This document shows positions 14,433 to 27,486 of a stretch of 64,000 nt of DNA, in pieces. The stretch comes from Changchengzhania lutea. GTDB lineage: Bacteria; Bacteroidota; Bacteroidia; Flavobacteriales; Flavobacteriaceae. The position numbers and the translations under genes were made by a program. The stretch covers positions 1,146,001-1,210,000 of the forward strand of contig NZ_CP039456.1 in NCBI RefSeq assembly GCF_006974145.1, written 5' to 3'. Positions within the stretch are counted from its first letter, which is position 1. Each line of letters begins with the position of its first letter. The notes below the pieces were generated by a model. The model saw only the letters and a program-made list of their open reading frames with translations, had not been told where the DNA came from and made no database searches.

Positions 14433-14476
14433 ATGACAAAAATCATATTTTGTGTAACAAATGTCACATACTTTTA
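14433..14476 (+). promoter_or_regulatory. FNR-like box and -7 element for the hexaheme gene
   Basis: ATGACAAAAATCAT at 14433-14446 fits nTGAY-N4-RTCAn and is centred 29.5 bp upstream of a TACTTTTA -7 box (14469-14476). A second palindrome, TGTAAC-AAAT-GTCACA at 14453-14468, fills the spacer and directly abuts the -7 box. The first site is placed for class II activation; the second is placed where a bound protein would block RNA polymerase. Confidence 0.7.
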
Positions 14477-14517: not shown

Positions 14518-15600
14518 ATGAAACCTCCCAACAAAATAAGTTACTTAATCATTCTAATATCAAGTTTAATGATTCTTGGATGTACCCATGACACAGAATA
14601 TATTCCTGGACCAGCAGGAGCTGATGGCATAGATGGCATTGATGGTCATGACGGGGTAGATGGAGTAGATGGCTCTGCTGCGGTTTGTATAGACTGTCAC
14701 TCTGCTTCTCACCGAGGTCCTATTAATGATTCATATATATTATCTGCACACGGCAGTGGAAGTTCTTGGGCAAGAGGCACCAGTGCCACTTGCGCACAAT
14801 GCCATAACAACCAAGGCTACGTCGATTATTTATCAGGGCTTTTTGTTAACGAAAACGGCATTCAATCGGCACATCCAGATGGTTATGCGGTCTCCAACCC
14901 GATTTCTTGTACAGGGTGTCATAGTGATCACCGGTCATTCGATTTTGTAAATGATGGTAATGACTATGCTCTAAGAAATATAGCTCCTGTAAGTTTGGTT
15001 CTAGACCCTAATATGGTCATTGACTTTAAAAACGATTCTAATCCATTAGGCACGAGTAATGCCTGTATAACCTGTCATCAACCAAGACCAAGTTATCCTA
15101 TTCCCGCAGGAACAGAAGACTATGAGATTACCAGTAGTCGATTCGGGCCACATCATGGTCCGCAATCAACCATGTTAGAAGGTGTCATGGGCGCCATTAT
15201 TACTGGCTCAACAGGTTATCCTGGTGTAGGGGCTGCGACTCATAGATCTGGGGCATCCTGCATTTCTTGCCATATGGGGGAAACTACGGATGGTACAGAC
15301 GGTGACCATACTTGGAAGCCAACTTTAAACACCTGTGTTAGCTGTCACACAAGTATGACTAGCATCCCAGATGGCATTGCCGGTTTAGAGGAGGATATGG
15401 CAACGCTCAAGGCATTATTATTAGCTCTTGACCCAAGTCCCTTACTTGAAACAGACAGTACCGTACCAGGCACCTATCCAGCCAATATAGCTAAAGCAAC
15501 CTGGAACTACAAAACTGTATTGGAAGATCATAGTAACGGTATTCATAACCCTGAATATACTAGAGCATTGATTAAAAACTCAATTGAAGCCTTACAATAA
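14518..15600 (+). CDS. Hexaheme c-type cytochrome lipoprotein with collagen-like linker
   Basis: 360 residues. A lipoprotein signal peptide ends at Cys22 (MILGC). Residues 31-52 are seven Gly-X-Y triplets rich in GID/GVD, a collagen-like spacer. Six CXXCH heme sites follow (CIDCH at 57, then CAQCH, CTGCH, CITCH, CISCH, CVSCH) with many extra His residues that could be distal ligands. The likely place is the periplasmic or outer face of a membrane, passing electrons to or from the FeS-NrfD modules downstream. It has its own promoter with an FNR-like box and its own terminator. The substrate is unknown; a six-heme cytochrome recalls QrcA of the Qrc complex, but sequence relationship is not shown here. 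Confidence 0.85.
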   Translation: MKPPNKISYLIILISSLMILGCTHDTEYIPGPAGADGIDGIDGHDGVDGVDGSAAVCIDCHSASHRGPINDSYILSAHGSGSSWARGTSATCAQCHNNQGYVDYLSGLFVNENGIQSAHPDGYAVSNPISCTGCHSDHRSFDFVNDGNDYALRNIAPVSLVLDPNMVIDFKNDSNPLGTSNACITCHQPRPSYPIPAGTEDYEITSSRFGPHHGPQSTMLEGVMGAIITGSTGYPGVGAATHRSGASCISCHMGETTDGTDGDHTWKPTLNTCVSCHTSMTSIPDGIAGLEEDMATLKALLLALDPSPLLETDSTVPGTYPANIAKATWNYKTVLEDHSNGIHNPEYTRALIKNSIEALQ

Positions 15601-15648
15601 AGGCCTTAACGCACTCATAAAAAGGTTTAACCGTTCCTTAATTTAAGC

Positions 15649-15672
15649 GTTTAGAATTGCTAAACCTTTTTA
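15649..15672 (+). terminator. Rho-independent terminator of the hexaheme gene
   Basis: GTTTAG-AATTG-CTAAAC hairpin followed by CTTTTTA. Wider pairing of AAAAAGGTTTA (15619-15629) with TAAACCTTTTT (15661-15671) is an alternative fold. It lies about 50 bp after the stop. Confidence 0.65.
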
Positions 15673-15962
15673 TAATTTTAGTTACTCTCATTTACGAAAA
15701 GAAATGAGGTGTTTAAAAACACATCTCCATTTGATATACCTCTGTAGAATTTATAAACAGCTAAAAACAGAAAAACAGCACTTTAAAAAACACTGTGGAT
15801 TTAACACCATAGTTTTTAAAGAAATAACAATCACGATAAATATGTTAAATACTTATAATTAATTGTGAACTCTTTGTTTTTATTAAAACAAATACAGCAT
15901 TAATGTCAATTCATTACAGATCTATAAATTTTAAACACTTTACCCTAATTCTCTCTGGCTTT

Positions 15963-16006
15963 ATGATATAAGTCATAATTACTGTAACAAATGTTACATA
16001 TTTTTA
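15963..16006 (+). promoter_or_regulatory. FNR-like box and -7 element for the EB_dh operon
   Basis: ATGATATAAGTCAT at 15963-15976, centred 29.5 bp before TATTTTTA at 15999-16006. The perfect palindrome TGTAAC-AAAT-GTTACA at 15983-15998 again occupies the spacer and abuts the -7 box, as at the hexaheme promoter. Confidence 0.72.
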
Positions 16007-16051
16007 TAACGTATTTCAAAAGTGAACTTATAAAAACTTAAATATATAATT

Positions 16052-17287
16052 ATGAAAACACCAAAATTAGTTTCTGCGCTATTTATTATGGCAATATTTT
16101 TTGCAGGCTGTACCCACGACGATTATGTTCCAATCACTGGACCAGATGATGGAGGTATTGGTGAAAGCCCAGACGAATTACTAGTAAAAAAATTCTCTAC
16201 AGCTCCAACTTTCGATGGAGATATTGACGATGTTTGGAGTGAAGCCAGGCCTTTAATAAATAAGGCAACTGTTACGCCCGCAGGTGATAGAGAAATCACT
16301 TTAAATTCATCAAGTGGAGGTGACTTATCATTAGAACCTACAGATTTAATGGATCCCTACACTGGCGAAAGTTACAGCTACTCTTTAAGGGGCGGTCATG
16401 ATGGTCAATACTTATACCTATTATTTGAATGGGAAGATGATACTGATAGTCAAGACAGAGAATCTTGGTTCTTTAACCCTATTACAAGTAAATGGCAACA
16501 AGAAAACAAATACGCCAATCATAAAAATGATAAATTTTATGAAGATAAATTTGGTTTTATGTTCCCAATAGGGAATCCTGCTGGATTTAATGAAGGCACA
16601 TGTACGGTTACTTGTCATAGTGGTTTAGCCGATCCCCAACCAGGAGAAAAAGTGACTAGACACTACATGAAAAATGAAGGCGAATTGGCCGATTTCTGGC
16701 ACTGGAAACGTGACAGACATGCATTAGCTGAAGCTTGTGATGATGGTTTTGTACAATGGGAAGACGATTTTGGAAAAGCGTCAGCTAACGGAAGAAAAAA
16801 TGATGAGGGTATCTCTCCTTATGCAAATAATCAAACATTTGAAGATGCTGTAACAGGAATGAAAGGACCAAAATATGTAATACCTAATAGAGAAAACTAC
16901 TATTGGATTGCACAATCTGAAATTGATGGTGGAACTGCAAAAGCAGTGACTGCAATTGCATTAGATGGTACCATAACACATGAAGGCGGAACAATTGATC
17001 CTAACGGAGATCCTGCATATTCGCAAGGATTTGGTAACAAAAGAATACCAAGTATTATAATTAATCCTGCCGGACAAGGAAATGATGGTAGATCTGAAGT
17101 ACAAGTGAAAGCTATACATACTGGTTCTGGATGGCAATTAGAAATTAGAAGATTACTATATACTGGCGACCCTACAGATGCTGAATTTAAAATTGGAGAA
17201 ACCATACCTTTTGGATTGGCAATTTTTAATAATGCTGCAATTGGCCATGGTCAAACTAACTTCTTATCAATGAAAATTGAAAATTAG
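16052..17287 (+). CDS. Ethylbenzene-dehydrogenase-related heme-binding lipoprotein
   Basis: 411 residues. A lipobox ends at Cys20 (FFAGC). The rest fits the EB_dh / DMSO-reductase gamma-like heme domain (PF09459): an APTFDGDIDDVWSEA opening, a GHDGQYLYLLFEWEDDT strand pair, a KFGFMFPI block and the closing PFGLAIFNN region. Family members bind heme and serve as electron-transfer subunits of molybdoenzymes. Near residue 184 there is CTVTCH, a CX3CH pattern rather than CXXCH, probably an extra covalent heme site. It is the first gene of an eight-gene operon with no molybdopterin subunit. A 17-bp-arm hairpin follows it. Confidence 0.8.
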   Translation: MKTPKLVSALFIMAIFFAGCTHDDYVPITGPDDGGIGESPDELLVKKFSTAPTFDGDIDDVWSEARPLINKATVTPAGDREITLNSSSGGDLSLEPTDLMDPYTGESYSYSLRGGHDGQYLYLLFEWEDDTDSQDRESWFFNPITSKWQQENKYANHKNDKFYEDKFGFMFPIGNPAGFNEGTCTVTCHSGLADPQPGEKVTRHYMKNEGELADFWHWKRDRHALAEACDDGFVQWEDDFGKASANGRKNDEGISPYANNQTFEDAVTGMKGPKYVIPNRENYYWIAQSEIDGGTAKAVTAIALDGTITHEGGTIDPNGDPAYSQGFGNKRIPSIIINPAGQGNDGRSEVQVKAIHTGSGWQLEIRRLLYTGDPTDAEFKIGETIPFGLAIFNNAAIGHGQTNFLSMKIEN

Positions 17288-17292
17288 TTTTA

Positions 17293-17334
17293 CTATCAAA
17301 TAGTGCAGACTAAGATGTGTCTGCACTATTTGAT
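17293..17334 (+). other. Strong intercistronic stem-loop
   Basis: Perfect 17-bp arms (TATCAAATAGTGCAGAC and its complement) enclose an 8-base loop, 6 bp after the EB_dh gene stop. No T run follows, so it is more likely an RNA-processing or mRNA-stabilising element that raises the level of the first cistron than a full terminator. Partial termination is possible. Confidence 0.6.
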
Positions 17335-17363
17335 AATAAGCATAATTGATAAAAACGTACAAT

Positions 17364-17726
17364 ATGAAAAAACTATTTCAAATTTTAGTATTAATAGGTA
17401 TCTGTTTATCTCTAGACTCGTGTTATTATGATTCTATTTATGAGCCTATAGCCGATGACGGTGATGATGGTGATCCCATAGAAGAAGTTACTTTCACTAA
17501 TGATATAGCACCCATTTTTGGGTTCTGTAGCAATTGCCATAATGGAAGTCAAGATCCTGATTTAAGAGATGGAAATGCATATAATTCACTAGTTCCAACT
17601 TATGTTACGGCTAATGACGCTGAAGCTAGCCCACTCTATATTAAATTAAAAGATGGCCATCAAAATTTACCAGCGAGTAGACTGGAATTAGTTAAAACCT
17701 GGATAGACCAAGGCGCTATAGAATAA
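17364..17726 (+). CDS. Monoheme c-type cytochrome lipoprotein
   Basis: 120 residues from the ATG at 17364. The upstream in-frame ATG at 17346 would only add six residues before the signal peptide. The lipobox ends at Cys20 (LSLDSC), followed by an Asp-rich linker and a single CSNCH heme site at 55-59 in a context (FTNDIAPIFGFCSNCH) typical of small cytochromes anchored in Bacteroidetes membranes. LPASRLELVKTWIDQGA near the end is the usual C-terminal helix. It lies within the EB_dh operon. Confidence 0.85.
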   Translation: MKKLFQILVLIGICLSLDSCYYDSIYEPIADDGDDGDPIEEVTFTNDIAPIFGFCSNCHNGSQDPDLRDGNAYNSLVPTYVTANDAEASPLYIKLKDGHQNLPASRLELVKTWIDQGAIE

Positions 17727-17748
17727 TTAACCTTTTAAGAATATAGAC

Positions 17749-18618
17749 ATGAAAAATTATATAAAACTATTTTTTGTTTTTTTGATACTTCCATTTATTA
17801 CTGTAGCTCAAGAACAGGTTAATGATACCATAGTAAAAGAAAAACCAGAACGCTCTGCGTTTGAAAGCTCATTTTTAATAGACAACCCAACAAATGTTTT
17901 ATTTAGCAAAAACACGTTAGAGGTACAAATGTCCCATAGGTTTGGAGAACTTAATGACGATAGAAACGATTTGGCTGGTTTTTATGGCGCAGCCAATATT
18001 AGAATTGGATTAACATACGGAATTCACGATAGATTAACCATAGGTTTTGGTACTACTAAAAACAAAAAATATCAGGACTTTAACTGGAAAGCGGCATTGT
18101 TAAGACAAACACGTTCTGATAAAATGCCTGTAAGCGTAAGCTACTACGGGAATTTCGCCATAGATGCAAGAAGTAAAAACCAAGGTCTTTTTCTAAATAC
18201 GGAAGATAGATACTCGTTTTTCAATCAGTTAATAATCGCTCGCCGATTCAATCCAAAACTTTCTTTACAAGTAGCTCCAAGTGTCTCTCATTATAACACA
18301 GTTGAAAGAACAATGAGAAATGACATGGTAGCCATTGCTTTTGGGGGACGTTATAAAATTAGTCCACAAACTTCTGTTATTGTAGATTATAGTCAACCAC
18401 TCACTAAAATGAGATTGAATAACCCTCAACCCGGAATTAGTTTAGGTGTTGAGTTTGGAACATCTGCCCACACGTTTCAATTATTTGCAACCAATTATTG
18501 GGGAATTCTTCCTCAAGAAAACTACATGTTTAACCAAAAGGCAACAGGACTTGATAAAAAGCAAGGTAGCGGACAATATCTTATTGGATTTAATATAACC
18601 AGAAACTATAACTTTTAA
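17749..18618 (+). CDS. DUF5777 family outer-membrane barrel protein
   Basis: 289 residues with a signal peptide (ending VAQ) and strand-rich sequence matching DUF5777: ESSFLIDNPTNVLFSKNTLE, MSHRFG, YGAANIRIGLTYGIHDRLTIG, and RRFNPKLSLQVAPS. It ends ITRNYNF, with the terminal aromatic residue of outer-membrane barrels. The family often occurs next to small periplasmic cytochromes and redox lipoproteins. The role is unknown; an outer-membrane partner for the lipoprotein cytochromes is plausible. It follows the cytochrome after 22 bp. Confidence 0.82.
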   Translation: MKNYIKLFFVFLILPFITVAQEQVNDTIVKEKPERSAFESSFLIDNPTNVLFSKNTLEVQMSHRFGELNDDRNDLAGFYGAANIRIGLTYGIHDRLTIGFGTTKNKKYQDFNWKAALLRQTRSDKMPVSVSYYGNFAIDARSKNQGLFLNTEDRYSFFNQLIIARRFNPKLSLQVAPSVSHYNTVERTMRNDMVAIAFGGRYKISPQTSVIVDYSQPLTKMRLNNPQPGISLGVEFGTSAHTFQLFATNYWGILPQENYMFNQKATGLDKKQGSGQYLIGFNITRNYNF

Positions 18619-18623
18619 ACATT

Positions 18624-18890
18624 ATGGAAAATAAATCTAGAAAAGGAACAAAAATTTCCCGTCGTGGCATGTTGCCGCTTTTAGGCGGTAGCTTACTAAT
18701 TCCTTTTCTAGGCTTTAGTAATTCTGAAAAGGATATCGTTTCCACAAGCAAAGATGAAACATACCAAACCCTCTTGAAACCAGATGGAACCACGGTTAAA
18801 GTTAAGACAGACACTTTAAAAAAGTCAAAAGTGCTTAAAAAGAACATCTCCAATACATCATTACTTAGTTGGATTAGTAAAAAACTTTAA
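18624..18890 (+). CDS. Small Tat-signal protein of unknown function
   Basis: 88 residues. It begins with a twin-arginine-like motif (KISRRGML) and a hydrophobic stretch (LPLLGGSLLIPFLGF). The short mature part contains LKPDGTTVKV, which resembles the TTDGTLIQV and TTDGTLVQV segments just after the Tat signals of the two FeS proteins in this island. It may be a small periplasmic subunit or a decoy-like stub of the FeS subunit's N-terminus. It lies 5 bp after the barrel gene and 23 bp before the FeS gene. No family is recognised. Confidence 0.7.
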   Translation: MENKSRKGTKISRRGMLPLLGGSLLIPFLGFSNSEKDIVSTSKDETYQTLLKPDGTTVKVKTDTLKKSKVLKKNISNTSLLSWISKKL

Positions 18891-18913
18891 TTTCAGTTTA
18901 ATTAGAATAAATT

Positions 18914-19897
18914 ATGGAAGAAAAGAACAAAAATTCAAGACGTAAATTTCTTGATAAGGGTTTAAAACTGGGTATTGTTAGTGCTATTGGCGGACTTGGA
19001 TTATCTAAAATCACCTCCAAATTAAATGCAACCAACACTGATGGTTCTGGAGACAAAATGGAATTAATGACCACTGATGGGACATTAATCCAAGTCGATT
19101 CTTCTGAGGTCATAGAAATTGAACACCCTACAGATCATGATAAAAAATACAATGTAAGGGAAGGAATGCCCAACCGTAAATTTGTTATGGTTGTCGATTT
19201 GGCCAAGTGTACCAACGAGCTTAAATGCCAGGAATCCTGCAATAAAAACCATTACATTACGGGCGATAATGCCTGGCTTAAGGTTTATAAGATGCAGGAA
19301 TCTGAAAAAGAAGCCCCTTACTGGATGCCTACCTTATGCCAACATTGCGATAAACCCGCTTGCGTTACCGTATGCCCTGTAGACGCGACCTTTAAAAGAA
19401 AAGACGGCTTGGTATTGATAGATGCCGAGCGCTGCATTGGCTGTAGGTTTTGTATGGCCGCCTGCCCCTACTCGGTGAGGGTATTTAACTGGAGCGAACC
19501 TGCACAAGGTGAAATGAGTGAGATCACCATGCATGCAGACATGGCTCAACATACGCCATCTCCAGAATATGCCGGTATGCCAAGCATAAAAGGTACTGTG
19601 GATAAATGTGACTTCTGTCCACATCAAATACACAAAAAAGAACTTCCGCATTGCGTTGCGGCTTGCCCTAACGATGTGTTTTACTTTGGCGATATGTATG
19701 AAGATGCCGTAACCAATGGTAGCGGGCAAACAGTTGTATTGAGCAAGCTTTTAGAAGAACGGGCAGGATATAAATTACTGGAAGGCCTTGGCACAGCTCC
19801 AAGCGTTTTTTACTTGCCTCCAGTCGATAGGCTGGGTGATTTTGAGGAAGGCCTAGAAAACTACAATGAATTTCAATCTGTTAAAAAGCCTGAATAA
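18914..19897 (+). CDS. Tat-exported four-cluster [4Fe-4S] protein (NrfC/DmsB/PsrB type), module A
   Basis: 327 residues. An N-terminal Tat signal (NSRRKFLDKGLKLG) is followed by a TTDGTLIQV segment and then four cubane-binding cysteine sets: C-x5-C-x3-C from about residue 97, CQHCDKPACVTVCP, CIGCRFCMAACP, and CDFC...CVAACP. This is the electron-transfer subunit of a membrane oxidoreductase, placed in the periplasm and docking on the NrfD protein encoded 2 bp downstream. The partner molybdopterin subunit normally beside such genes is missing in the window. Confidence 0.92.
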   Translation: MEEKNKNSRRKFLDKGLKLGIVSAIGGLGLSKITSKLNATNTDGSGDKMELMTTDGTLIQVDSSEVIEIEHPTDHDKKYNVREGMPNRKFVMVVDLAKCTNELKCQESCNKNHYITGDNAWLKVYKMQESEKEAPYWMPTLCQHCDKPACVTVCPVDATFKRKDGLVLIDAERCIGCRFCMAACPYSVRVFNWSEPAQGEMSEITMHADMAQHTPSPEYAGMPSIKGTVDKCDFCPHQIHKKELPHCVAACPNDVFYFGDMYEDAVTNGSGQTVVLSKLLEERAGYKLLEGLGTAPSVFYLPPVDRLGDFEEGLENYNEFQSVKKPE

Positions 19898-19899
19898 TC

Positions 19900-21219
19900 A
19901 TGTATACCCATAAAAAAATAATCAGTGATTTAGCGCCAAAAAAATTTGGCAAAAGGGATTCTATTTGGACCGCTTCACTTATTGTCATTGTAATTGTTGG
20001 AATTATTGCTTATATAGACCAACTTATCAAGGGACAAGAAGTAACCAATATGAGGGACTATGCTCTTTGGGGGATTTACATCTCTAATTTTGTATTCTTT
20101 GTAGCAACAAGTTTTGTAGGCACAGTTACAGTTGCCATATTACGGTTAACCAATAATTCGTGGCGGACCCCTTTAGTTAGAATTGCCGAAATCATATCCG
20201 TTGCAGCCATTATTATGGCCGGAATTACCATCATGATCGATATGGCAAGACCCGATAGATTATTAAACCTGTTTATCCATGCAAGACTTCAATCCCCTAT
20301 TACTTGGGATGTGGTAATTATTCCAACTTACATTGTTATTAGTTTGTTATTATTATATTTTCCTTTGATTCCAGATTTCGCAATACTTAAAGGCCATTTT
20401 AAAAAGAAAAAGCCAAAACTAGGTAAGTTTTACGGTAAATTGGCTTTAAACTGGACAGGAAGTAAAGCTCAAAAATTATTGCAGGAAAAATCCATCCAAA
20501 TTCTTGCGATCATGATTATTCCCGTTGGCCTATTACTTCAAACAATTGATGCTTGGTTATTTTCTACAACCTATAGAATTGGATGGGACAGCACTAATTT
20601 TGCGCCGTATTTTATTTCTGGAGCTTTTGTTGCCGGGGTTGGCTCACTTATAACTCTAATTTTTATTATTAGAAAAGCAAAAAAATTGGAAAACTACATT
20701 ACCAATCACCACTTCGACAAGCTTGGTAAGCTATTAGTACTTGCTTGTCTAATTTACCTCTATTTTAGTATTAACGAATATGTTATTCCGTTATTTACAG
20801 CAAAAAAGGGAGAGCTTACACATTTAGAAACCTTATATTCAGGAACCTATTCAATTTTATTTTGGGCAGTAACCCTACTAGGCTTGGTTTTACCAATCAT
20901 AATATTACTATTTAAGGCAGGAAGAAAACCGCTACCTATGTTTATTATAGGTTTAACGGTGGTAGTCGGAGCCTGGTGGAAACGCTACCTAATTGTTACA
21001 CCTACACTATTACATCCGTTTTTGCCTATTCAAGGCGTTCCAGAATCATGGCACCACTATTTCCCTAGTTTGCACGAATGGTTAATTACTATCGCAACAC
21101 TTGCCATGGCTTTCTTGATCATTACAATTTTAGTCCGCTATTTACCTGTCATTCCTATACAAAGAACAATTGATGAGCAAGCATTATTAAAAACGAATAA
21201 TAATCCCACTGAATCATGA
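19900..21219 (+). CDS. NrfD/PsrC-family membrane subunit, module A
   Basis: 439 residues with about ten hydrophobic membrane segments. Recognisable blocks: RDYALWGIYISNFVFFVATS, MARPDRLLNL, ITWDVVIIPTYIVISLLLLY, GWDSTNFAPYFISGAFVAG, and WWKRYLIVTPTLLHPFLPIQ. NrfD proteins exchange electrons with the quinone pool. The gene starts 2 bp after the FeS gene and overlaps the next by 4 bp (ATGA), so the products are made together. Module B encodes a clear paralogue at 23709-25064. Confidence 0.92.
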   Translation: MYTHKKIISDLAPKKFGKRDSIWTASLIVIVIVGIIAYIDQLIKGQEVTNMRDYALWGIYISNFVFFVATSFVGTVTVAILRLTNNSWRTPLVRIAEIISVAAIIMAGITIMIDMARPDRLLNLFIHARLQSPITWDVVIIPTYIVISLLLLYFPLIPDFAILKGHFKKKKPKLGKFYGKLALNWTGSKAQKLLQEKSIQILAIMIIPVGLLLQTIDAWLFSTTYRIGWDSTNFAPYFISGAFVAGVGSLITLIFIIRKAKKLENYITNHHFDKLGKLLVLACLIYLYFSINEYVIPLFTAKKGELTHLETLYSGTYSILFWAVTLLGLVLPIIILLFKAGRKPLPMFIIGLTVVVGAWWKRYLIVTPTLLHPFLPIQGVPESWHHYFPSLHEWLITIATLAMAFLIITILVRYLPVIPIQRTIDEQALLKTNNNPTES

Positions 21220-22088
21220 AAAACCAATTAAATCTTCGGTTCTTTTTTATCGCATTTATAAGTGTGTTTTTATTCACCTCTTTATTTCAAAATTTATTTG
21301 CTCAAGAGGTTAAAAAAAATAAGGTTAGATTAAAAGTCGATTATTTTAAAATTATGGATCATGAAGCTTATTTTAATATTAAAGCTTTTTCCAGAATTGA
21401 TAAAGAAAATGTAGATGTTTCAAATATTGAATTAATCATTTATAATGACCTAGAAGATGAAAAAATTAAAGTGGGCAGTACAACCACCAATATGGAAGGT
21501 GAAAGTAAATTTATTTTAACCAGTCTAAATGCTATTAAGCCAGATTCAACACAAACCTATAATATGGTTGTTTCGTTTAAAGGAAATGATTTATTTAAAA
21601 AATCATCCAAAAGCATTAGCTTTAAAGATGCGACCATTAAGGCACGTGTAATAACAAAAGATAGCCTAAATTATATAAGCGCAACACTTACGGAGACAAG
21701 TAAAGACAGTGCACTTGTTGACCAGACACTTAATGTGCAAGTAGCGCGACTATTCAGCCCTTTAAGAATAGGTGAAGAATTTAACTATACCGATGAGAAT
21801 GGTACAATACTTGTACCAATTGAAGATGGAATACCGGGTGTAGATGGAAATTTAATCATTGAAGTCGTTTTAAAGGAGAATGATGACTTCGGAACTGTAA
21901 AAGCCATAATTAATGCTCCTCTAGGAGTACCTATAGTAGATGAATCTACATTTGATCAAAGAAAAATGTGGTCTCCCAGAAATAAAACACCAATTTTTAT
22001 TCTAATATTTGCCAATTTGCTAATTTTAGCAATGTGGGGCATTATTATATATTTAATTGTCAATTTATTTAGAATCAATAAAATTTAA
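21216..22088 (+). CDS. Exported protein with C-terminal membrane anchor, module A accessory
   Basis: 290 residues. A signal peptide (ending LFAQ) and a soluble, strand-rich region of about 225 residues with FSRIDKENVDVSN and TDENGTILVPIEDGIPG precede a single C-terminal transmembrane helix (IFILIFANLLILAMWGIIIY). The segment LFSPLRIGEEFNYTDENG is matched by FSLLPIGDPFNATDENG in the shorter module B protein, so they are diverged homologues. I recognise no named family; beta-sandwich modules are plausible. Its fixed place between nrfD and the cytochrome gene suggests a structural subunit facing the periplasm. Confidence 0.75.
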   Translation: MKNQLNLRFFFIAFISVFLFTSLFQNLFAQEVKKNKVRLKVDYFKIMDHEAYFNIKAFSRIDKENVDVSNIELIIYNDLEDEKIKVGSTTTNMEGESKFILTSLNAIKPDSTQTYNMVVSFKGNDLFKKSSKSISFKDATIKARVITKDSLNYISATLTETSKDSALVDQTLNVQVARLFSPLRIGEEFNYTDENGTILVPIEDGIPGVDGNLIIEVVLKENDDFGTVKAIINAPLGVPIVDESTFDQRKMWSPRNKTPIFILIFANLLILAMWGIIIYLIVNLFRINKI

Positions 22089-22092
22089 CATT

Positions 22093-22491
22093 ATGAAAAC
22101 ACTTAAAAATCTAATCTTTATACTAATAACAGCATTTGCATTAGTTTCCTTTACCTCTATAATTCAAGAGAAATGGGAGGTTCCCGCCAAGTATGAGAAC
22201 ATGAAAAACCCAACAAATCCAAGTGAAGATATAGCCATAGGGAAATCTCTTTATAGCAAACACTGTAAATCCTGTCATGGTAAAGAAGGTTATGGTGATG
22301 GTCCCAAGGCTGAGGAACAAGAAGGGGATTTGGGAGATTTTTCAACATCAGAATTTCAAGCACAATCTGATGGTGCTTTATTTTACAAAACCACCTTTGG
22401 AAGAGACGATATGCCAGAATACACAAAAAAAATGCCTGATGACGAAGACCGATGGCTTATTGTAAATTATATGAGGGCTTTGAAAGAATAG
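22093..22491 (+). CDS. Monoheme cytochrome c, module A
   Basis: 132 residues from the ATG at 22093, 4 bp after the preceding stop. The hydrophobic N-terminus (LIFILITAFALVSF) is a signal or membrane anchor. One CKSCH site at 58-62 in a class I cytochrome c context, and DDMPEY supplies a candidate axial Met. KWEVPAKYENMKNP before the heme is shared with the module B cytochrome. It probably accepts electrons from the FeS-NrfD unit. A strong terminator follows. Confidence 0.92.
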   Translation: MKTLKNLIFILITAFALVSFTSIIQEKWEVPAKYENMKNPTNPSEDIAIGKSLYSKHCKSCHGKEGYGDGPKAEEQEGDLGDFSTSEFQAQSDGALFYKTTFGRDDMPEYTKKMPDDEDRWLIVNYMRALKE

Positions 22492-22521
22492 TTTTACTTA
22501 TACATGTAATATATATTAATA

Positions 22522-22546
22522 AAACCCGAACAAATTGTTCGGGTTT
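22522..22546 (+). terminator. Terminator of the module A operon
   Basis: AAACCCGAACAA and TTGTTCGGGTTT form a perfect 12-bp inverted repeat around one base, followed by CTTATT. It is 30 bp after the cytochrome stop and closes the operon begun at 16052. Confidence 0.8.
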
Positions 22547-22585
22547 CTTATTAATAAACTTTTTAATCACCCCAATGCAAACCCA

Positions 22586-22649
22586 TGTAACAAAAGTTAC
22601 AAAACATGATATAAATCATTAAATTATTGGTAATTAGATGTTATATTTG
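22586..22649 (+). promoter_or_regulatory. Double operator and promoter of the module B operon
   Basis: ATGATATAAATCAT at 22606-22619 is centred 29.5 bp before TATATTTG at 22642-22649. The perfect palindrome TGTAAC-AAAA-GTTACA at 22586-22601 lies upstream of it here, not between box and -7 element as at the other two cytochrome promoters. Near the predicted -62 position it could assist activation instead of blocking it. Confidence 0.75.
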
Positions 22650-22797
22650 AGATTATTGGTTTTGCTTTTAAAGTGAACAAGAGCAATTCTTTTTAAAATT
22701 AAAAACCGCATTTTTTGACATTTAGCTCGTTAGAGATTGACTTTTTAAACTATGTTCTTTAATAGTTTAATTCCCCCTTTAATTTAATCTCAAAGTA

Positions 22798-23712
22798 ATG
22801 GAAAAGGAAAATTCCAATACAGATTCTAGAAGGCAATTCTTAAAACAAATTTCTACAGGTAGTATCCTCGCCGCATCTGGATTAACATTTAGCTCTCTTT
22901 CTTCTTGCAAAGAAACATCACAAGAAAAAACTACTTTATTAACAACAGATGGGACATTGGTTCAAGTTCCTAACTCCGAAATTGAAGCTATGGAACATTT
23001 ACAACATGGAGTCCCACCCAAAGAGGCTCGTAAGGGCATTCCTGGCAAAAAATTTGTTATGGTAATCGATTTAGGTAAATGTAAGAATGCTAGAAAATGT
23101 GTACAAGCTTGCGACAAACACCATAATCTTACACCGGACAGACCTTATATAAAGGTTCTTGAAATGAAGGACAATGAAAAATCATCGCCTTATTGGATGC
23201 CAAAAAAATGCTTTCAATGCGACAATCCTCCTTGTGTAAAAGTTTGCCCAGTTGGTGCCACTTTTAAACGAACTGATGGAATTGTTCTTGTTGATAACGA
23301 ACGTTGTATAGGCTGCCGCTTTTGTATGGCTGCCTGCCCTTATTCTGCAAGAGTTTTTAATTGGGGAGCTCCTCCAGGGGAGGAACTAGACATCCCCTAT
23401 TCACCTGAAACCAGTCTTCCAAGTAAAATTGGCACAGTCGCTAAATGTGATTTTTGCCCTGATATGCTTCGAGAAGGTAAATTACCACACTGCGTTCCAG
23501 CTTGCCCCAACGGGGTTATTTATTTTGGTGATGAGATTGATGATACGGTTACTAATGGTGACGAGACAGTCCGACTTTCTACCATTTTAAAAGACAAAGC
23601 AGGTTATCGATATATGGAAGAATTAGGCACTAAACCACGTGTATATTACTTACCTCCTGTCGATAGACTGTTTCCTTTTGAAAAGAACAACGAAGCTAAT
23701 AGTGAATCATGA
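22798..23712 (+). CDS. Tat-exported four-cluster [4Fe-4S] protein, module B
   Basis: 304 residues, paralogue of the module A protein. Tat-like signal SRRQFLKQISTGS with a following SSC that could also be a lipobox. A TTDGTLVQV segment, then cysteine sets C-x5-C-x3-C, CFQCDNPPCVKVCP, CIGCRFCMAACP and CDFC...CVPACP for four [4Fe-4S] clusters. Expected role: periplasmic electron carrier attached to the NrfD subunit. Its stop overlaps the nrfD start by 4 bp. The leader from predicted start of transcription to ATG is about 140 bases. Confidence 0.92.
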   Translation: MEKENSNTDSRRQFLKQISTGSILAASGLTFSSLSSCKETSQEKTTLLTTDGTLVQVPNSEIEAMEHLQHGVPPKEARKGIPGKKFVMVIDLGKCKNARKCVQACDKHHNLTPDRPYIKVLEMKDNEKSSPYWMPKKCFQCDNPPCVKVCPVGATFKRTDGIVLVDNERCIGCRFCMAACPYSARVFNWGAPPGEELDIPYSPETSLPSKIGTVAKCDFCPDMLREGKLPHCVPACPNGVIYFGDEIDDTVTNGDETVRLSTILKDKAGYRYMEELGTKPRVYYLPPVDRLFPFEKNNEANSES

Positions 23713-25064
23713 GAAAAGCGGTTCAAAAACAGCAGAAATATAGAACCAAGCGAGGGGAAGTATTATTGGCTCATATCGTAAATACATCCTTAAAATATAA
23801 ATTGTGGATTGCTTTTCTTCTTCTCATTATATTTATATCTGGATATGCTTATTATAGACAGCTAAAATTAGGTCTTATTGTAACGGCAATGAGAGATTAT
23901 ACCTCTTGGGGAATTTACATCTCCAATTTTGTTTTTTTCGTTGCTATTAGTTTAGTTGGCTCCCTATTCAGTTCTATATTAAAACTCAATAAAAATGTAT
24001 GGTCAAGACCTTTAACCAGAGTATCAGAAATTATTGCAGTAGCAGCTATTATTTGTGCGTCCGCAATTATTATAGTTGATATGGGCCGGCCAGACCGGTT
24101 TTTTTACGTGATTACACATTTAAGAATTCAATCACCCATTATTTGGGACGTCATTATTATTTCAACCTATTTAGTTATAAGTTTGTTATTACTCTACCTT
24201 TCTTTACTTCCTGATATTGCGCTTTGCCGTGATAGGCTTATAGCCATACCTAAGTGGAAAAAACGGATGTATAAATTTTTAGCGATAAATTGGAATAATG
24301 ACCCTAAACAAGTTGCAAGCCTTCAAAAAATAAGCAGAATATTAGCCATTACAGTACTCCCTGTTGCATTTGCTATCCATACAGTAACCTCCTGGTTGTT
24401 TGCTACAACCTGGCGTCCGGGATGGGATAGTACCAACTTAGGCCCATATTTTGTTTCGGGAGCTTTTATGGCAGGTGCAGCAGTGATAATTGTCGCCATG
24501 TATTTTTTGAGAGTACAATTAAAACTTAAAGCTTATATAACTGAATTGCATTTTAACAGAATGGGGCATCTTTTAGTGTTATTATCACTTGTGTATCTTT
24601 ACTTTAATATAAATGAATATCTCGGTCCTGCCTTTAAAATGGTTGGTGTTGAAGGTGAACATATTACAGAATTATTTACAGGAAAATATGCCCCTATGTA
24701 TTGGTTAGTTCAGTTGGGAGGACTAATTTTACCAATCATTTTTTTAATATTCAGGCCATTTAGAAAACCTTTACCAATATTTATTATATCGTTATTCGTG
24801 ATTTTGGGAGCATGGTTTAAGCGTTTTCTAATTGTTATCCCGTCACTACAACATCCTTATTTACCTATTCAAGGGGTGGACGAATCGTATTTACATTATA
24901 ATCCTACTTGGGAAGAATGGGCCATCACAATGTCTTCTTTTGCTTGGTTCTTATTAATTATTACAGTTCTTATTAAATTATTTCCTGTAATCCCTGTTCT
25001 AAAAGAGAAACTTGATTCTGAAACTATCGTAAAACTAAATATTTTTAAAAATGAGAATTCATAA
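23709..25064 (+). CDS. NrfD/PsrC-family membrane subunit, module B
   Basis: 451 residues, about ten transmembrane segments, clearly homologous to the module A protein along its length: MRDYTSWGIYISNFVFF, MGRPDRFF, WDVIIISTYLVISLLLLY, GWDSTNLGPYFVSGAFMAG, and RFLIVIPSLQHPYLPIQ. Function by family: quinone-interacting membrane subunit of a respiratory complex. It overlaps the FeS gene by 4 bp and the next gene by 14 bp. Confidence 0.92.
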   Translation: MRKAVQKQQKYRTKRGEVLLAHIVNTSLKYKLWIAFLLLIIFISGYAYYRQLKLGLIVTAMRDYTSWGIYISNFVFFVAISLVGSLFSSILKLNKNVWSRPLTRVSEIIAVAAIICASAIIIVDMGRPDRFFYVITHLRIQSPIIWDVIIISTYLVISLLLLYLSLLPDIALCRDRLIAIPKWKKRMYKFLAINWNNDPKQVASLQKISRILAITVLPVAFAIHTVTSWLFATTWRPGWDSTNLGPYFVSGAFMAGAAVIIVAMYFLRVQLKLKAYITELHFNRMGHLLVLLSLVYLYFNINEYLGPAFKMVGVEGEHITELFTGKYAPMYWLVQLGGLILPIIFLIFRPFRKPLPIFIISLFVILGAWFKRFLIVIPSLQHPYLPIQGVDESYLHYNPTWEEWAITMSSFAWFLLIITVLIKLFPVIPVLKEKLDSETIVKLNIFKNENS

Positions 25065-25632
25065 TTATTTAAAAATGCATGTTTTGAAAGTTTTTATCCT
25101 TTTAGGCATAATAGGTCTCAATAACTCCATAATTTATGCACAAGACTCTAAGGAAGATGCGGTATTGGCTATTTCTTTCTCTGAAGAAAATGACCGTAAA
25201 GTAATCGTAACAAAAGCAACGGACCATTATGGCTTACCTATTGAGGATCTCGAATTATATTTTTATGTTAAAAGAACCTTTAGTTTATTACCTATTGGAG
25301 ATCCATTTAACGCTACAGATGAAAATGGAATTGTGGAAGTTGAATTCCCAAATGACCTTCCGGGAGATGCCAAAGGAAATGTTATCATTATAACAAAAAT
25401 AATTGAATCAGATTTGTATCATGATCTTTCAATAGAAAATATAAAAAAATGGGGTGTACCAACAATACAAGTTCAATCAGAAGAAAAAAGATCCTTATGG
25501 GCTGCGGCAGCCAATGCCCCGATAAGTTTGATCTTGATTGTTAGCATTATGATTATTTCTGTATGGTATATCATTTTTTATATCCTTTTTAAACTATACA
25601 AAATCAGCAAAATCAAACCTTTAAACGGTTAA
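25051..25632 (+). CDS. Exported protein with C-terminal membrane anchor, module B accessory
   Basis: 193 residues, or 185 from a second ATG at 25075 that would avoid overlap with nrfD. A signal peptide (ending IYAQ), a soluble part carrying FSLLPIGDPFNATDENG, and a C-terminal transmembrane helix (PISLILIVSIMIISVWYIIF) mirror the longer module A protein, from which about one domain is missing. No known family is recognised. The conserved order FeS, NrfD, anchored protein, cytochrome in both modules argues that it is a genuine subunit. Confidence 0.75.
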   Translation: MRIHNYLKMHVLKVFILLGIIGLNNSIIYAQDSKEDAVLAISFSEENDRKVIVTKATDHYGLPIEDLELYFYVKRTFSLLPIGDPFNATDENGIVEVEFPNDLPGDAKGNVIIITKIIESDLYHDLSIENIKKWGVPTIQVQSEEKRSLWAAAANAPISLILIVSIMIISVWYIIFYILFKLYKISKIKPLNG

Positions 25633-25674
25633 AGAATATACAATAAAATGATTATAAATTAAAAGTCTTCTATT

Positions 25675-26088
25675 ATGAAAAATCAAGTTTTTAACATCAG
25701 CATAATTCTCGTTGGATGCCTAGCACTATTATCAATGGCTGCCCTAAAATCCAATATGCAAGATACTTGGGAAGCACCGGCCAAATACGTAAAAATGAAG
25801 AACCCTTATACAAATAGTACAGATGACGAGAAAATAGGTCGGATTATGTACGCTAAACATTGTAAATCATGTCATGGCACAAAAGGAAAAGGGGACGGTA
25901 AAAAAGCAGGAAGTATAGATACCCCTATTGGTGATTTTTCAGATGATTCATTTAAAAAACAAACTGATGGAAGTCTTTATTATAAAACAATATTTGGACG
26001 AGATGATATGCCGAGTTTTGAAAAGAAAATAACAGATGAAGAAGAACGATGGTTAATAGTTAATCATATAAGATCCCTCGGGGAATAA
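25675..26088 (+). CDS. Monoheme cytochrome c, module B
   Basis: 137 residues with a hydrophobic N-terminus and one CKSCH heme site. The flanking TWEAPAKYVKMKNPY and FGRDDMPSFEKKITDEEERWLIVNHIRSLGE show it is a paralogue of the module A cytochrome. DDMP provides a candidate axial Met. It is the last gene of the module B operon. The next gene, hemA, has its own promoter. Confidence 0.92.
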   Translation: MKNQVFNISIILVGCLALLSMAALKSNMQDTWEAPAKYVKMKNPYTNSTDDEKIGRIMYAKHCKSCHGTKGKGDGKKAGSIDTPIGDFSDDSFKKQTDGSLYYKTIFGRDDMPSFEKKITDEEERWLIVNHIRSLGE

Positions 26089-26124: not shown

Positions 26125-26168
26125 ATGACAATTGTCATTAATTATGCTGTAAATAGATGCTATCTTTG
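26125..26168 (+). promoter_or_regulatory. FNR-like box and -7 element for hemA
   Basis: The perfect palindrome ATGACAATTGTCAT at 26125-26138 is centred 29.5 bp before TATCTTTG at 26161-26168, which matches the Bacteroidetes TAnnTTTG consensus. No TGTAAC-type palindrome is present here. Confidence 0.72.
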
Positions 26169-26268: not shown

Positions 26269-27486
26269 ATGGATAGGTCTTTAAAATATATAAGCATTTC
26301 ACATAAAAATGCACCTGTTATTCAGCGAGAAAAATATTATATATCCGAAATAGAAAAAGAAGATTTAGTAAATTTAATTTGTAAATCTTTTCCTGAAATT
26401 AAAGGATTATTGATATTATCAACCTGCAATAGAACAGAAATTTACTTTGAATCTGTAGGCATATCTGCCACTTCAATACGTGATTTTTTTATAATCTATA
26501 AGATAGGGCAAAATATTAAAGGGAATGCACCTTTATTCCGTTATAGCAATACTACAGAAGGCACCATTAAACATCTTTTGCTAGTTTCTTCGGGCCTAGA
26601 GTCTATGGTAATTGGTGACGCCGAAATTATACATCAAATAAAAAAGGCCTATCACTTTGCAATGGCTCATAAGCTACAAGGCTCCTTATTAGAGCGTGCT
26701 TTACAAACTGTATTTAAAACTCATAAACGCATCAGTAACGAGACTACATTTAGAGACGGCACCACGTCTGTAGCTTATAAATCGTTAAAGGTTATTAGGG
26801 ATTCCTACGCTAAAACAACTGTAAAGTCTAAAAAAATATTATTCGTTGGTGCGGGAGACATTGTTAAACAATTGTTTAAGTATAATAATAAATTCAATTT
26901 TAGTAACATTTATATAAGTAATCGCAGTCAGGAAAAAGCTGAAGTTTTAGCCAAAATAAACAATAGCAAAACCTACGATTGGAATAAAGTGATTGAAAAT
27001 AATTTCCAGGATTTCGATGTTATAATTAGTGCAGTAAGCAACTGCCGCCATATAATAAAGAACATTGGGGATTCTACAAAAAAAATAATCCTTATAGATT
27101 TAGCCGTACCAAGCAATATTGATAAAAGCATGACACAATCCGAAAATATAATTTATTTTGATTTGGATACCATATCCGTGGAACTAAAAGAGACAAAAGA
27201 AAAAAGACTAGCGGCCACCAACCAAATAAGCACCATTATCAACGAGGAATTTTACCTTTACCTGCAATGGATTCAAAAAGCTCCTTTTCGTGAACTTATT
27301 GCCAAATATAAAACGATGGTAAGCAAAAAAGTTCAAAATCATTTTGAAGAGCATTTAGGCTCACACAACATTCAAAAAATGAAAGAGATTACGAATCAGG
27401 TCATGCGGAAATTAATGGAGGAAAATGGAACCATAAATACTTCTTTAAAAATAGACTCTCTAATTTTGCAGCATATAGAGCGATAA
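26269..27486 (+). CDS. hemA: Glutamyl-tRNA reductase
   Basis: 405 residues. The catalytic Cys53 sits in LSTCNRTEIYF; SSGLESMVIGDAEIIHQIKKAY matches the substrate-binding block, here GDAE instead of the common GEPQ; an NADPH-binding motif (LFVGAGDIV) and a C-terminal dimerisation helix follow. It makes glutamate-1-semialdehyde, the first committed step to heme. No other heme biosynthesis gene is adjacent, so this may be a second copy that boosts heme supply for the cytochromes upstream. It has its own FNR-like promoter. Confidence 0.9.
   Translation: MDRSLKYISISHKNAPVIQREKYYISEIEKEDLVNLICKSFPEIKGLLILSTCNRTEIYFESVGISATSIRDFFIIYKIGQNIKGNAPLFRYSNTTEGTIKHLLLVSSGLESMVIGDAEIIHQIKKAYHFAMAHKLQGSLLERALQTVFKTHKRISNETTFRDGTTSVAYKSLKVIRDSYAKTTVKSKKILFVGAGDIVKQLFKYNNKFNFSNIYISNRSQEKAEVLAKINNSKTYDWNKVIENNFQDFDVIISAVSNCRHIIKNIGDSTKKIILIDLAVPSNIDKSMTQSENIIYFDLDTISVELKETKEKRLAATNQISTIINEEFYLYLQWIQKAPFRELIAKYKTMVSKKVQNHFEEHLGSHNIQKMKEITNQVMRKLMEENGTINTSLKIDSLILQHIER

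Follow-up and report, generated by a model that had tools for sequence, protein, structure and literature searches.

Several respiratory complexes pair a NrfD-type membrane protein with an iron–sulfur (FeS) protein, and MopB-free NrfD complexes are known as a class from the Nrf, Mcc, Nhc, Dsr and Hyd-2 systems (PMC8076601). NrfABCD, MccACD, NhcABCD and Hyd-2 combine such a pair with a catalytic multihaem or hydrogenase subunit of their own. Alternative complex III (ACIII; ActABCDEF) includes the MopB-like domain of ActB, the pentahaem ActA and a second NrfD-type protein, ActF, besides ActC. For Melioribacter roseus, an orphan NrfCD pair (Mros1571-1572) has been proposed to be a quinol:acceptor reductase delivering electrons to an outer-membrane Fe(III) reductase (PMC3534657). 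Here we compare with these systems a 64,000-nucleotide stretch of the Changchengzhania lutea genome (contig NZ_CP039456.1, positions 1,146,001 to 1,210,000; hereafter, the window, in whose coordinates positions are given), which carries two paralogous modules, A and B, each with the gene order FeS protein, NrfD, membrane anchor and monohaem cytochrome c. An earlier reading of the letters without database searches (hereafter, the sequence-only reading) had pointed out both modules, and their genes were confirmed where it had placed them. We regard as real a conserved complex family that would work most like a reduced ACIII, and its core is probably a MopB-free, ACIII-like quinone:cytochrome c oxidoreductase.

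The kinship of the three redox subunits with ACIII supports this reading. Searched against the PDB, the NrfD profile matched the solved ActC proteins (1e-74 to 1e-65); no solved NrfD protein besides ActC and ActF came within E 0.001, and PsrC gave no match. The FeS profile matched ArrB-type, PsrB and ActB chains, and the FeS protein was 31% identical to the C-terminal domain of ActB from the same genome, while the cytochrome aligned with ActE at 34% identity (5e-14). The order FeS–NrfD–anchor–cytochrome parallels ActB–ActC–ActD–ActE of the genome's own ACIII. A quick tree placed module A apart from ActC, each as its own clade (local support 99 and 100%), and divided module B into the window's group and a third group; this tree has long branches, was built without DsrP or QrcD, and does not settle whether the modules are sister to ActC. 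The sequence-only reading had proposed a MopB-free quinol:cytochrome c unit feeding outer-membrane cytochromes. Because the NrfD, FeS and cytochrome proteins are ActC-, ActB2- and ActE-like, the first part is a good reading, and a conserved link to outer-membrane haem genes (see below) agrees with the second; the function of both parts is a prediction from sequence.

Compared with ActC of the same genome, the module NrfD proteins (A/B) keep Ser132/142, Asp137/147, Arg94/104, Glu97/107 and the gate Arg362/372, and carry Asp at the position of His139, as do many NrfD proteins. Of the residues named in PMC8076601, they retain the conserved Ser, the acidic residue of transmembrane helix 2, the equivalent of Asp169 and the gate Arg. 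The Asp253 equivalent is Leu and that of Glu394 is also not kept, which weighs on ion translocation. Because the quinone-site residues are mostly those of ACIII and these two are not kept, module NrfD likely binds quinone, and ion translocation, though possible, is less certain. The FeS proteins had been described as four-cluster proteins. This label calls for a caveat at group I: its second Cys is missing, with Ala at the position in 96 of 106 relatives, and 15 cluster Cys remain; an unusual first cluster is therefore predicted. In ActB, the missing cluster Cys is in group III instead. The Met of the cytochrome is invariant (95/95). The anchor of module A was modelled with a predicted local distance difference test score (pLDDT) of 89.6, Foldseek returned generic Ig/FN3-type folds only, and the predicted model showed no sign of a cofactor. 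In two relatives, anchor B is fused to NrfD B as one open frame, which suggests direct contact and that NrfD and anchor belong to a physical complex.

When 84,980 species genomes were scanned, at least 571 stretches proved to encode relatives; the best of these, 79 loci, were kept, almost all of them from Bacteroidota. There the core lies in a longer cassette of nearly fixed order, i.e., monohaem lipoprotein, DUF5777 barrel, small twin-arginine translocation (Tat) protein, FeS protein, NrfD, immunoglobulin (Ig)-like anchor and His/Met cytochrome c; the haem lipoprotein gene that usually stands before this series varies and is most often a hexahaem gene with a collagen-like stretch. Counted over the 79 loci, three loci of a first search and the window, the core clusters were those of NrfD (n = 82), FeS (n = 81), anchor (n = 79) and cytochrome (n = 77). 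These were accompanied by DUF5777 (n = 70), the monohaem lipoprotein (n = 67) and the small Tat protein (n = 60), and more variably by hexahaem (n = 35), EB_dh (n = 22), hemA (n = 20) and dihaem lipoprotein (n = 10) genes. The counts are lower bounds, as many contigs are short, and are slightly inflated by one locus that entered twice (L069 and L103). An arrangement in which one gene order recurs in 79 loci is far beyond chance. That the genes cluster fortuitously or are decayed paralogues without joint function, in an organism with a complete ACIII for aerobic respiration, is extremely improbable, and the conservation of open frames, gene order and promoter geometry across genera already contradicts it. 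The modules are an accessory trait, because only a few of the 298 genomes searched within the order carry them, as do 10 of 151 genera of Flavobacteriaceae (one genome per genus). Among the matches listed, the nearest relatives by locus were Flavobacteriaceae, and NrfD A was 87% identical to a protein of an uncultured Algibacter. Cultured carriers include Seonamhaeicola aphaedonensis and type strains of Robiginitalea and Muriicola. No published description of the cassette was found in the open-licence literature searched.

The absence of a MopB subunit noted from the window holds more widely. Across the 79 loci, the survey of FeS–NrfD gene neighbourhoods showed the same order, and none of the cassettes included a MopB gene. 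The only MopB proteins found in the genome (complete, 4.13 Mb) were ActB of ACIII, which gave no PF00384 match and was identified through its operon, and a cytoplasmic FdhF/YdeP-type enzyme. The latter, of 768 residues, was the one PF00384 match; it is encoded near cofactor genes and has no FeS or membrane partner. Because PF00384 returned this protein alone and PF04879 matched no protein in the genome, the check whether any MopB gene shares the promoter motif gave no candidate; the molybdenum enzyme that is coregulated is SorA-like and of another fold family. A coencoded or coregulated MopB catalytic subunit, as in complex iron–sulfur molybdoenzymes (Psr, Ttr, Dms type), was thus not found in the genome or in the cassettes of the 79 neighbourhoods. 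The genome encodes three NrfD proteins, the two of the window and a third that was rejected as a further module because it is ActC, encoded in a complete operon for ACIII and an oxidase. The starting premise of the sequence-only reading, that FeS–NrfD pairs normally need a MopB partner or belong to Qrc or ACIII, fails against the MopB-free complexes in Table 1 of PMC8076601.

Membership of the described complexes was also considered. ACIII was rejected, as a search for the MopB-like, pentahaem and second NrfD subunits found none of them: the FeS proteins (304-327 residues) have no MopB-like ActB domain, and ActA and ActF are missing from the cassette. In addition, the Ig-like anchor replaces ActD, and the modules are linked to outer-membrane haem proteins. 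That an ACIII-like ActC–FeS–cytochrome core exists without the MopB relic, the pentahaem and the second NrfD subunits bears on the purpose of those subunits and on the assembly history of ACIII. DsrO and DsrP gave the best NCBIfam scores of the FeS and NrfD proteins, but DsrOP was rejected with scores below the curated cut-offs (179.7 and 185.6 bits for a cut-off of 200; 121.6 and 141.9 bits for one of 350), and DsrM, DsrK and DsrJ are not among the conserved cassette neighbours. The cassette shares the MopB-free FeS–NrfD pair with the NrfABCD, MccACD, NhcABCD and Hyd-2 complexes, but no catalytic multihaem or hydrogenase subunit like theirs was recognised in it; within the cluster, the hexahaem protein scored ~18-22 bits against NrfA/C552 models, below the cut-off for a pentahaem nitrite reductase. 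The Melioribacter roseus system, compared by description only, is described as a pair, for which the available text describes no cassette, promoters or sulfur link, and the available text of a multi-omics paper on Melioribacter (PMC5492636) does not mention it.

On the outer-membrane side, the core genes are tightly linked to the lipoprotein and barrel genes (67 and 70 loci). DUF5777 was modelled as a 12-strand barrel (pLDDT 88.9) with Foldseek matches that include NanC, Tsx, COG4313 and FapF; a literature search for this family returned no papers. Three of its His residues (63, 181 and 241) are invariant across 45 aligned homologues. In 34 of 35 hexahaem homologues, 6 to 10 Gly-X-Y units follow the lipid-attachment Cys and precede the haem domain, and a run of five or more such units occurs in 1/1262 other proteins of the same neighbourhoods. 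This pattern suggests that the stretch acts as a stalk, which may trimerise and face outward. The hexahaem protein has weak similarity to MtrC/MtrF domains and no convincing relatedness to ActA. In the EB_dh protein, the CX3CH residues C184, C188 and H189 are conserved in 21 of 22 homologues.

In the route that we propose, menaquinol would be oxidised at NrfD on the periplasmic side and its electrons would pass through the Tat-exported FeS protein to the periplasmic His/Met cytochrome c; the Ig-like protein, with its single helix, would be one more subunit anchored in the membrane. At the outer membrane, the monohaem lipoprotein next to the DUF5777 barrel would then link the cytochrome to surface haem lipoproteins of the hexahaem (on its collagen-like stalk), EB_dh or dihaem type. 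This full outward path is possible, if a little short of probable. It resembles MtrCAB-type conduits in the inner-membrane quinol side, the outer-membrane barrel and the weakly MtrC/MtrF-like multihaem lipoprotein; it differs in its 12-strand barrel and in that the cassette has no periplasmic multihaem cytochrome to fill it. Four points weigh against electrons reaching the surface in this way. His/Met cytochromes usually have a high potential, and one is awkward before a hexahaem protein that is probably bis-His and of low potential. Module B itself lacks outer-membrane genes. The barrel, as modelled, is too narrow to enclose a multihaem protein in the way of MtrCAB. Finally, the co-occurrence with sulfur and nitrous oxide genes described below would also fit a periplasmic acceptor.

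The features of the locus are given in Table 1. Pfam matches well over cut-off agree with the identities first given to the EB_dh, DUF5777 and NrfD (8e-30 and 1e-33) proteins, and six CxxCH motifs with that of the hexahaem protein. The small Tat protein (18624-18890) resembles an N-terminal FeS-subunit segment without Cys, as if derived from the FeS subunit.

Table 1 Genes and promoter boxes of the two modules and their surroundings (window coordinates).
Feature	Position	Strand	Remarks
Motif 1 before hexahaem gene, ATGACAAAAATCAT	14433..14446	+	FNR-like; −7-like TACTTTT at 14469
Motif 2 before hexahaem gene, TGTAACAAATGTCACA	14453..14468	+	Centre 21 bp 3' of motif 1, before −7
Hexahaem lipoprotein	14518..15600	+	(Gly-X-Y)8 collagen-like stretch after lipobox; six CxxCH
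Motif 1 before EB_dh operon, ATGATATAAGTCAT	15963..15976	+	
Motif 2 before EB_dh operon, TGTAACAAATGTTACA	15983..15998	+	
EB_dh-domain lipoprotein, heads module A operon	16052..17287	+	PF09459 1.5e-30; conserved CX3CH
Monohaem lipoprotein	17364..17726	+	Lipobox SCYYD
DUF5777 outer-membrane barrel	17749..18618	+	PF19089 3.8e-75; 12 predicted strands
Small Tat-signal protein, no Cys	18624..18890	+	From sequence
FeS subunit A	18914..19897	+	Tat signal; 15 Cys, group I without second Cys
NrfD subunit A, ActC-like	19900..21219	+	Quinone-site and gate residues D114, S132, D137, R362
Anchor subunit A	21216..22088	+	Signal peptide, Ig-like beta domains, C-terminal transmembrane helix
Monohaem His/Met cytochrome c A, ActE-like	22093..22491	+	
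Motif 2 before module B, TGTAACAAAAGTTACA	22586..22601	+	Centre 19 bp 5' of motif 1
Motif 1 before module B, ATGATATAAATCAT	22606..22619	+	−7-like TATATTT at 22642
FeS subunit B	22798..23712	+	Tat signal; cluster Cys pattern as in FeS A
NrfD subunit B	23709..25064	+	Residues D124, S142, D147, R372
Anchor subunit B, short form	25051..25632	+	
Monohaem cytochrome c B	25675..26088	+	
Motif 1 before hemA, ATGACAATTGTCAT	26125..26138	+	
hemA	26269-27486		Motif 1 upstream

Judged by their two-box promoters, there are three apparent transcription units, the hexahaem gene, the EB_dh-to-cytochrome A operon and module B; a clear hairpin, AACCCGAACAAATTGTTCGGGTT, was read directly from the sequence between modules A and B. 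The two boxes, the gene co-occurrence and the closeness to ACIII go beyond the sequence-only reading. Of 98 regions upstream of cassette genes, 56 contain motif 1 (ATGAYN4RTCAT), against 0.29 expected from shuffled bases. Among 80 sites, 54 have the Bacteroidota −7-like TAnnTTT beginning exactly 29 nt from the motif centre (3.6 expected in a six-position window), a distance that places an activator near −41. Genome-wide there were 68 sites versus 19 for a control pattern. Because they include those of the FNR/cbb3 cluster, hemN, a second hemA and a nos-type cytochrome, motif 1 is very probably an FNR-type box, through which low oxygen would induce the cassette. An fnr gene of this genome lies at 513 kb.

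Motif 2 (GTAACN4GTTAC) was found in 16 of the 98 upstream regions, with 0.03 expected. Its genome-wide number is not above control (8 sites versus 11), and it is the placement of the sites that informs: elsewhere in the genome they precede the FadL–SQR–DsrE2, SorA-like sulfite dehydrogenase and DoxX–DsrE–SoxB-like operons, where SQR is sulfide:quinone oxidoreductase. For one intergenic site (3365069), the flanking genes showed no link to sulfur, and one exact match to a longer pattern of motif 2, inside an amylase gene, was taken as a chance hit. In relatives (L209, L210, L212, L213 and L216), motif 2 occurs in sulfur islands that encode a CRP-family regulator together with YeeE/YedE, SulP transporters, an enzyme of the metallo-beta-lactamase fold, rhodanese, a MopB enzyme and SQR. 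The candidate regulator in this genome is a CRP-family gene beside YeeE/YedE at 376 kb, in the gene order of the relatives, and in some species the cassette may also be tuned by such a regulator of sulfur genes. The published consensus GTAACnnnnGTTAC, which matches motif 2, is that of HcpR2 (PMC1274295), and the signal could therefore be nitric oxide rather than sulfur. In one relative (L209:811-5153), the gene of a twelve-haem, ExtM-like cytochrome and a PhsA-like MopB gene diverge from an intergenic stretch that holds motif 2 and an FNR-like box.

These sulfur operons also bear on the suggestion that the FeS–NrfD pairs are not self-standing and serve a catalytic subunit encoded elsewhere, e.g., the coregulated SorA-type sulfite dehydrogenase. 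The SorA-like gene, which has two motif 2 sites, is followed by one for a small haem protein, and there is a MopB enzyme in the islands of relatives. SorA-type enzymes use a cytochrome of their own, which counts against SorA as the partner; the MopB enzymes of relatives own their FeS partner, and the genome searches described above yielded only the cytoplasmic-type PF00384 protein. We consider such an outside subunit highly improbable.

The position of motif 2 relative to motif 1 is reversed between the units. In the window and several relatives it lies inside the promoter, 21 bp 3' of motif 1, at the hexahaem and EB_dh units, and 19 bp 5' of motif 1 at module B; a few relatives show other spacings. 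Because of this reversal, we infer that one regulator may repress the hexahaem and EB_dh promoters and help module B. If so, the two paralogous modules would be wired oppositely to the sulfur regulator, and the cell would swap them with sulfur and oxygen. We tentatively propose a new respiratory conduit of Bacteroidota, in which a minimal MopB-free ACIII relative joins the menaquinone pool, by way of a monohaem lipoprotein and a 12-strand barrel, to surface haem proteins, some of them on collagen-like stalks, and the oppositely wired modules switch with sulfur and oxygen. Flavobacteria are abundant in coastal sediment, and little is understood of how they respire where oxic and anoxic layers meet; such a conduit would give those of marine sediments a concrete, testable and possibly overlooked route of respiration.

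Co-occurrence was assessed in one genome per genus, for 10 carrier and 141 non-carrier genera, with Fisher tests that ignore relatedness between genera. NosZ was present in 10/10 carrier and 63/141 non-carrier genera (5e-4), and in 37 of 45 carrier genomes. SQR with E below 1e-60, a cut picked after a score gap was seen, was present in 9/10 versus 20/141 (1e-6); at the curated cut-off the counts were 6/10 versus 16/141 (7e-4). Both associations may reflect a shared sediment niche. The carrier genus Eudoraea is abundant in permeable sand (PMC8443593).

The NosZ association favours a low-oxygen quinol:cytochrome c reductase, i.e., a second, anoxic ACIII feeding NosZ and cbb3, with the outer-membrane proteins doing a separate job. 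The His/Met cytochrome fits such a periplasmic acceptor, as does the FNR-like box that also precedes the genome's cbb3 cluster and nos-type cytochrome. We regard it as somewhat unlikely: the 63 module-free genera with NosZ indicate that the module is not needed for this enzyme, the organism already has an ACIII, and the tight linkage to barrel and lipoproteins would be left unexplained. The SQR association and the motif 2 sites shared with the SQR–DsrE2, sulfite dehydrogenase and DoxX–DsrE–SoxB-like operons, together with the larger sulfur islands of relatives, instead suit electron uptake. Surface haems would then take electrons from reduced sulfur or other donors, and either the cytochrome would pass them to acceptors or NrfD would reduce menaquinone as in Qrc and Nhc. 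This reversed flow is unlikely, given that motif 2 is limited to about one-fifth of the upstream regions and stands in a repressor-like position at the hexahaem and EB_dh promoters, and given that SQR already passes sulfide electrons to quinone. The outward route from menaquinol remains the reading that we prefer.

Some loci carried further features. A different NrfD–FeS–tetrahaem cytochrome set adjoins the cassette on the opposite strand in two of them (L069:15127-17541 and L089:12700 onwards). One metagenome-assembled genome record titled Bifidobacterium breve (L133) has a Bacteroidota-like, cassette-bearing contig, and its label or bin is probably wrong. On an Ignavibacteria contig (L140:2142-4210), CRISPR-like repeats lie 5' of the cassette and are visible as repeated peptides in spurious frames.

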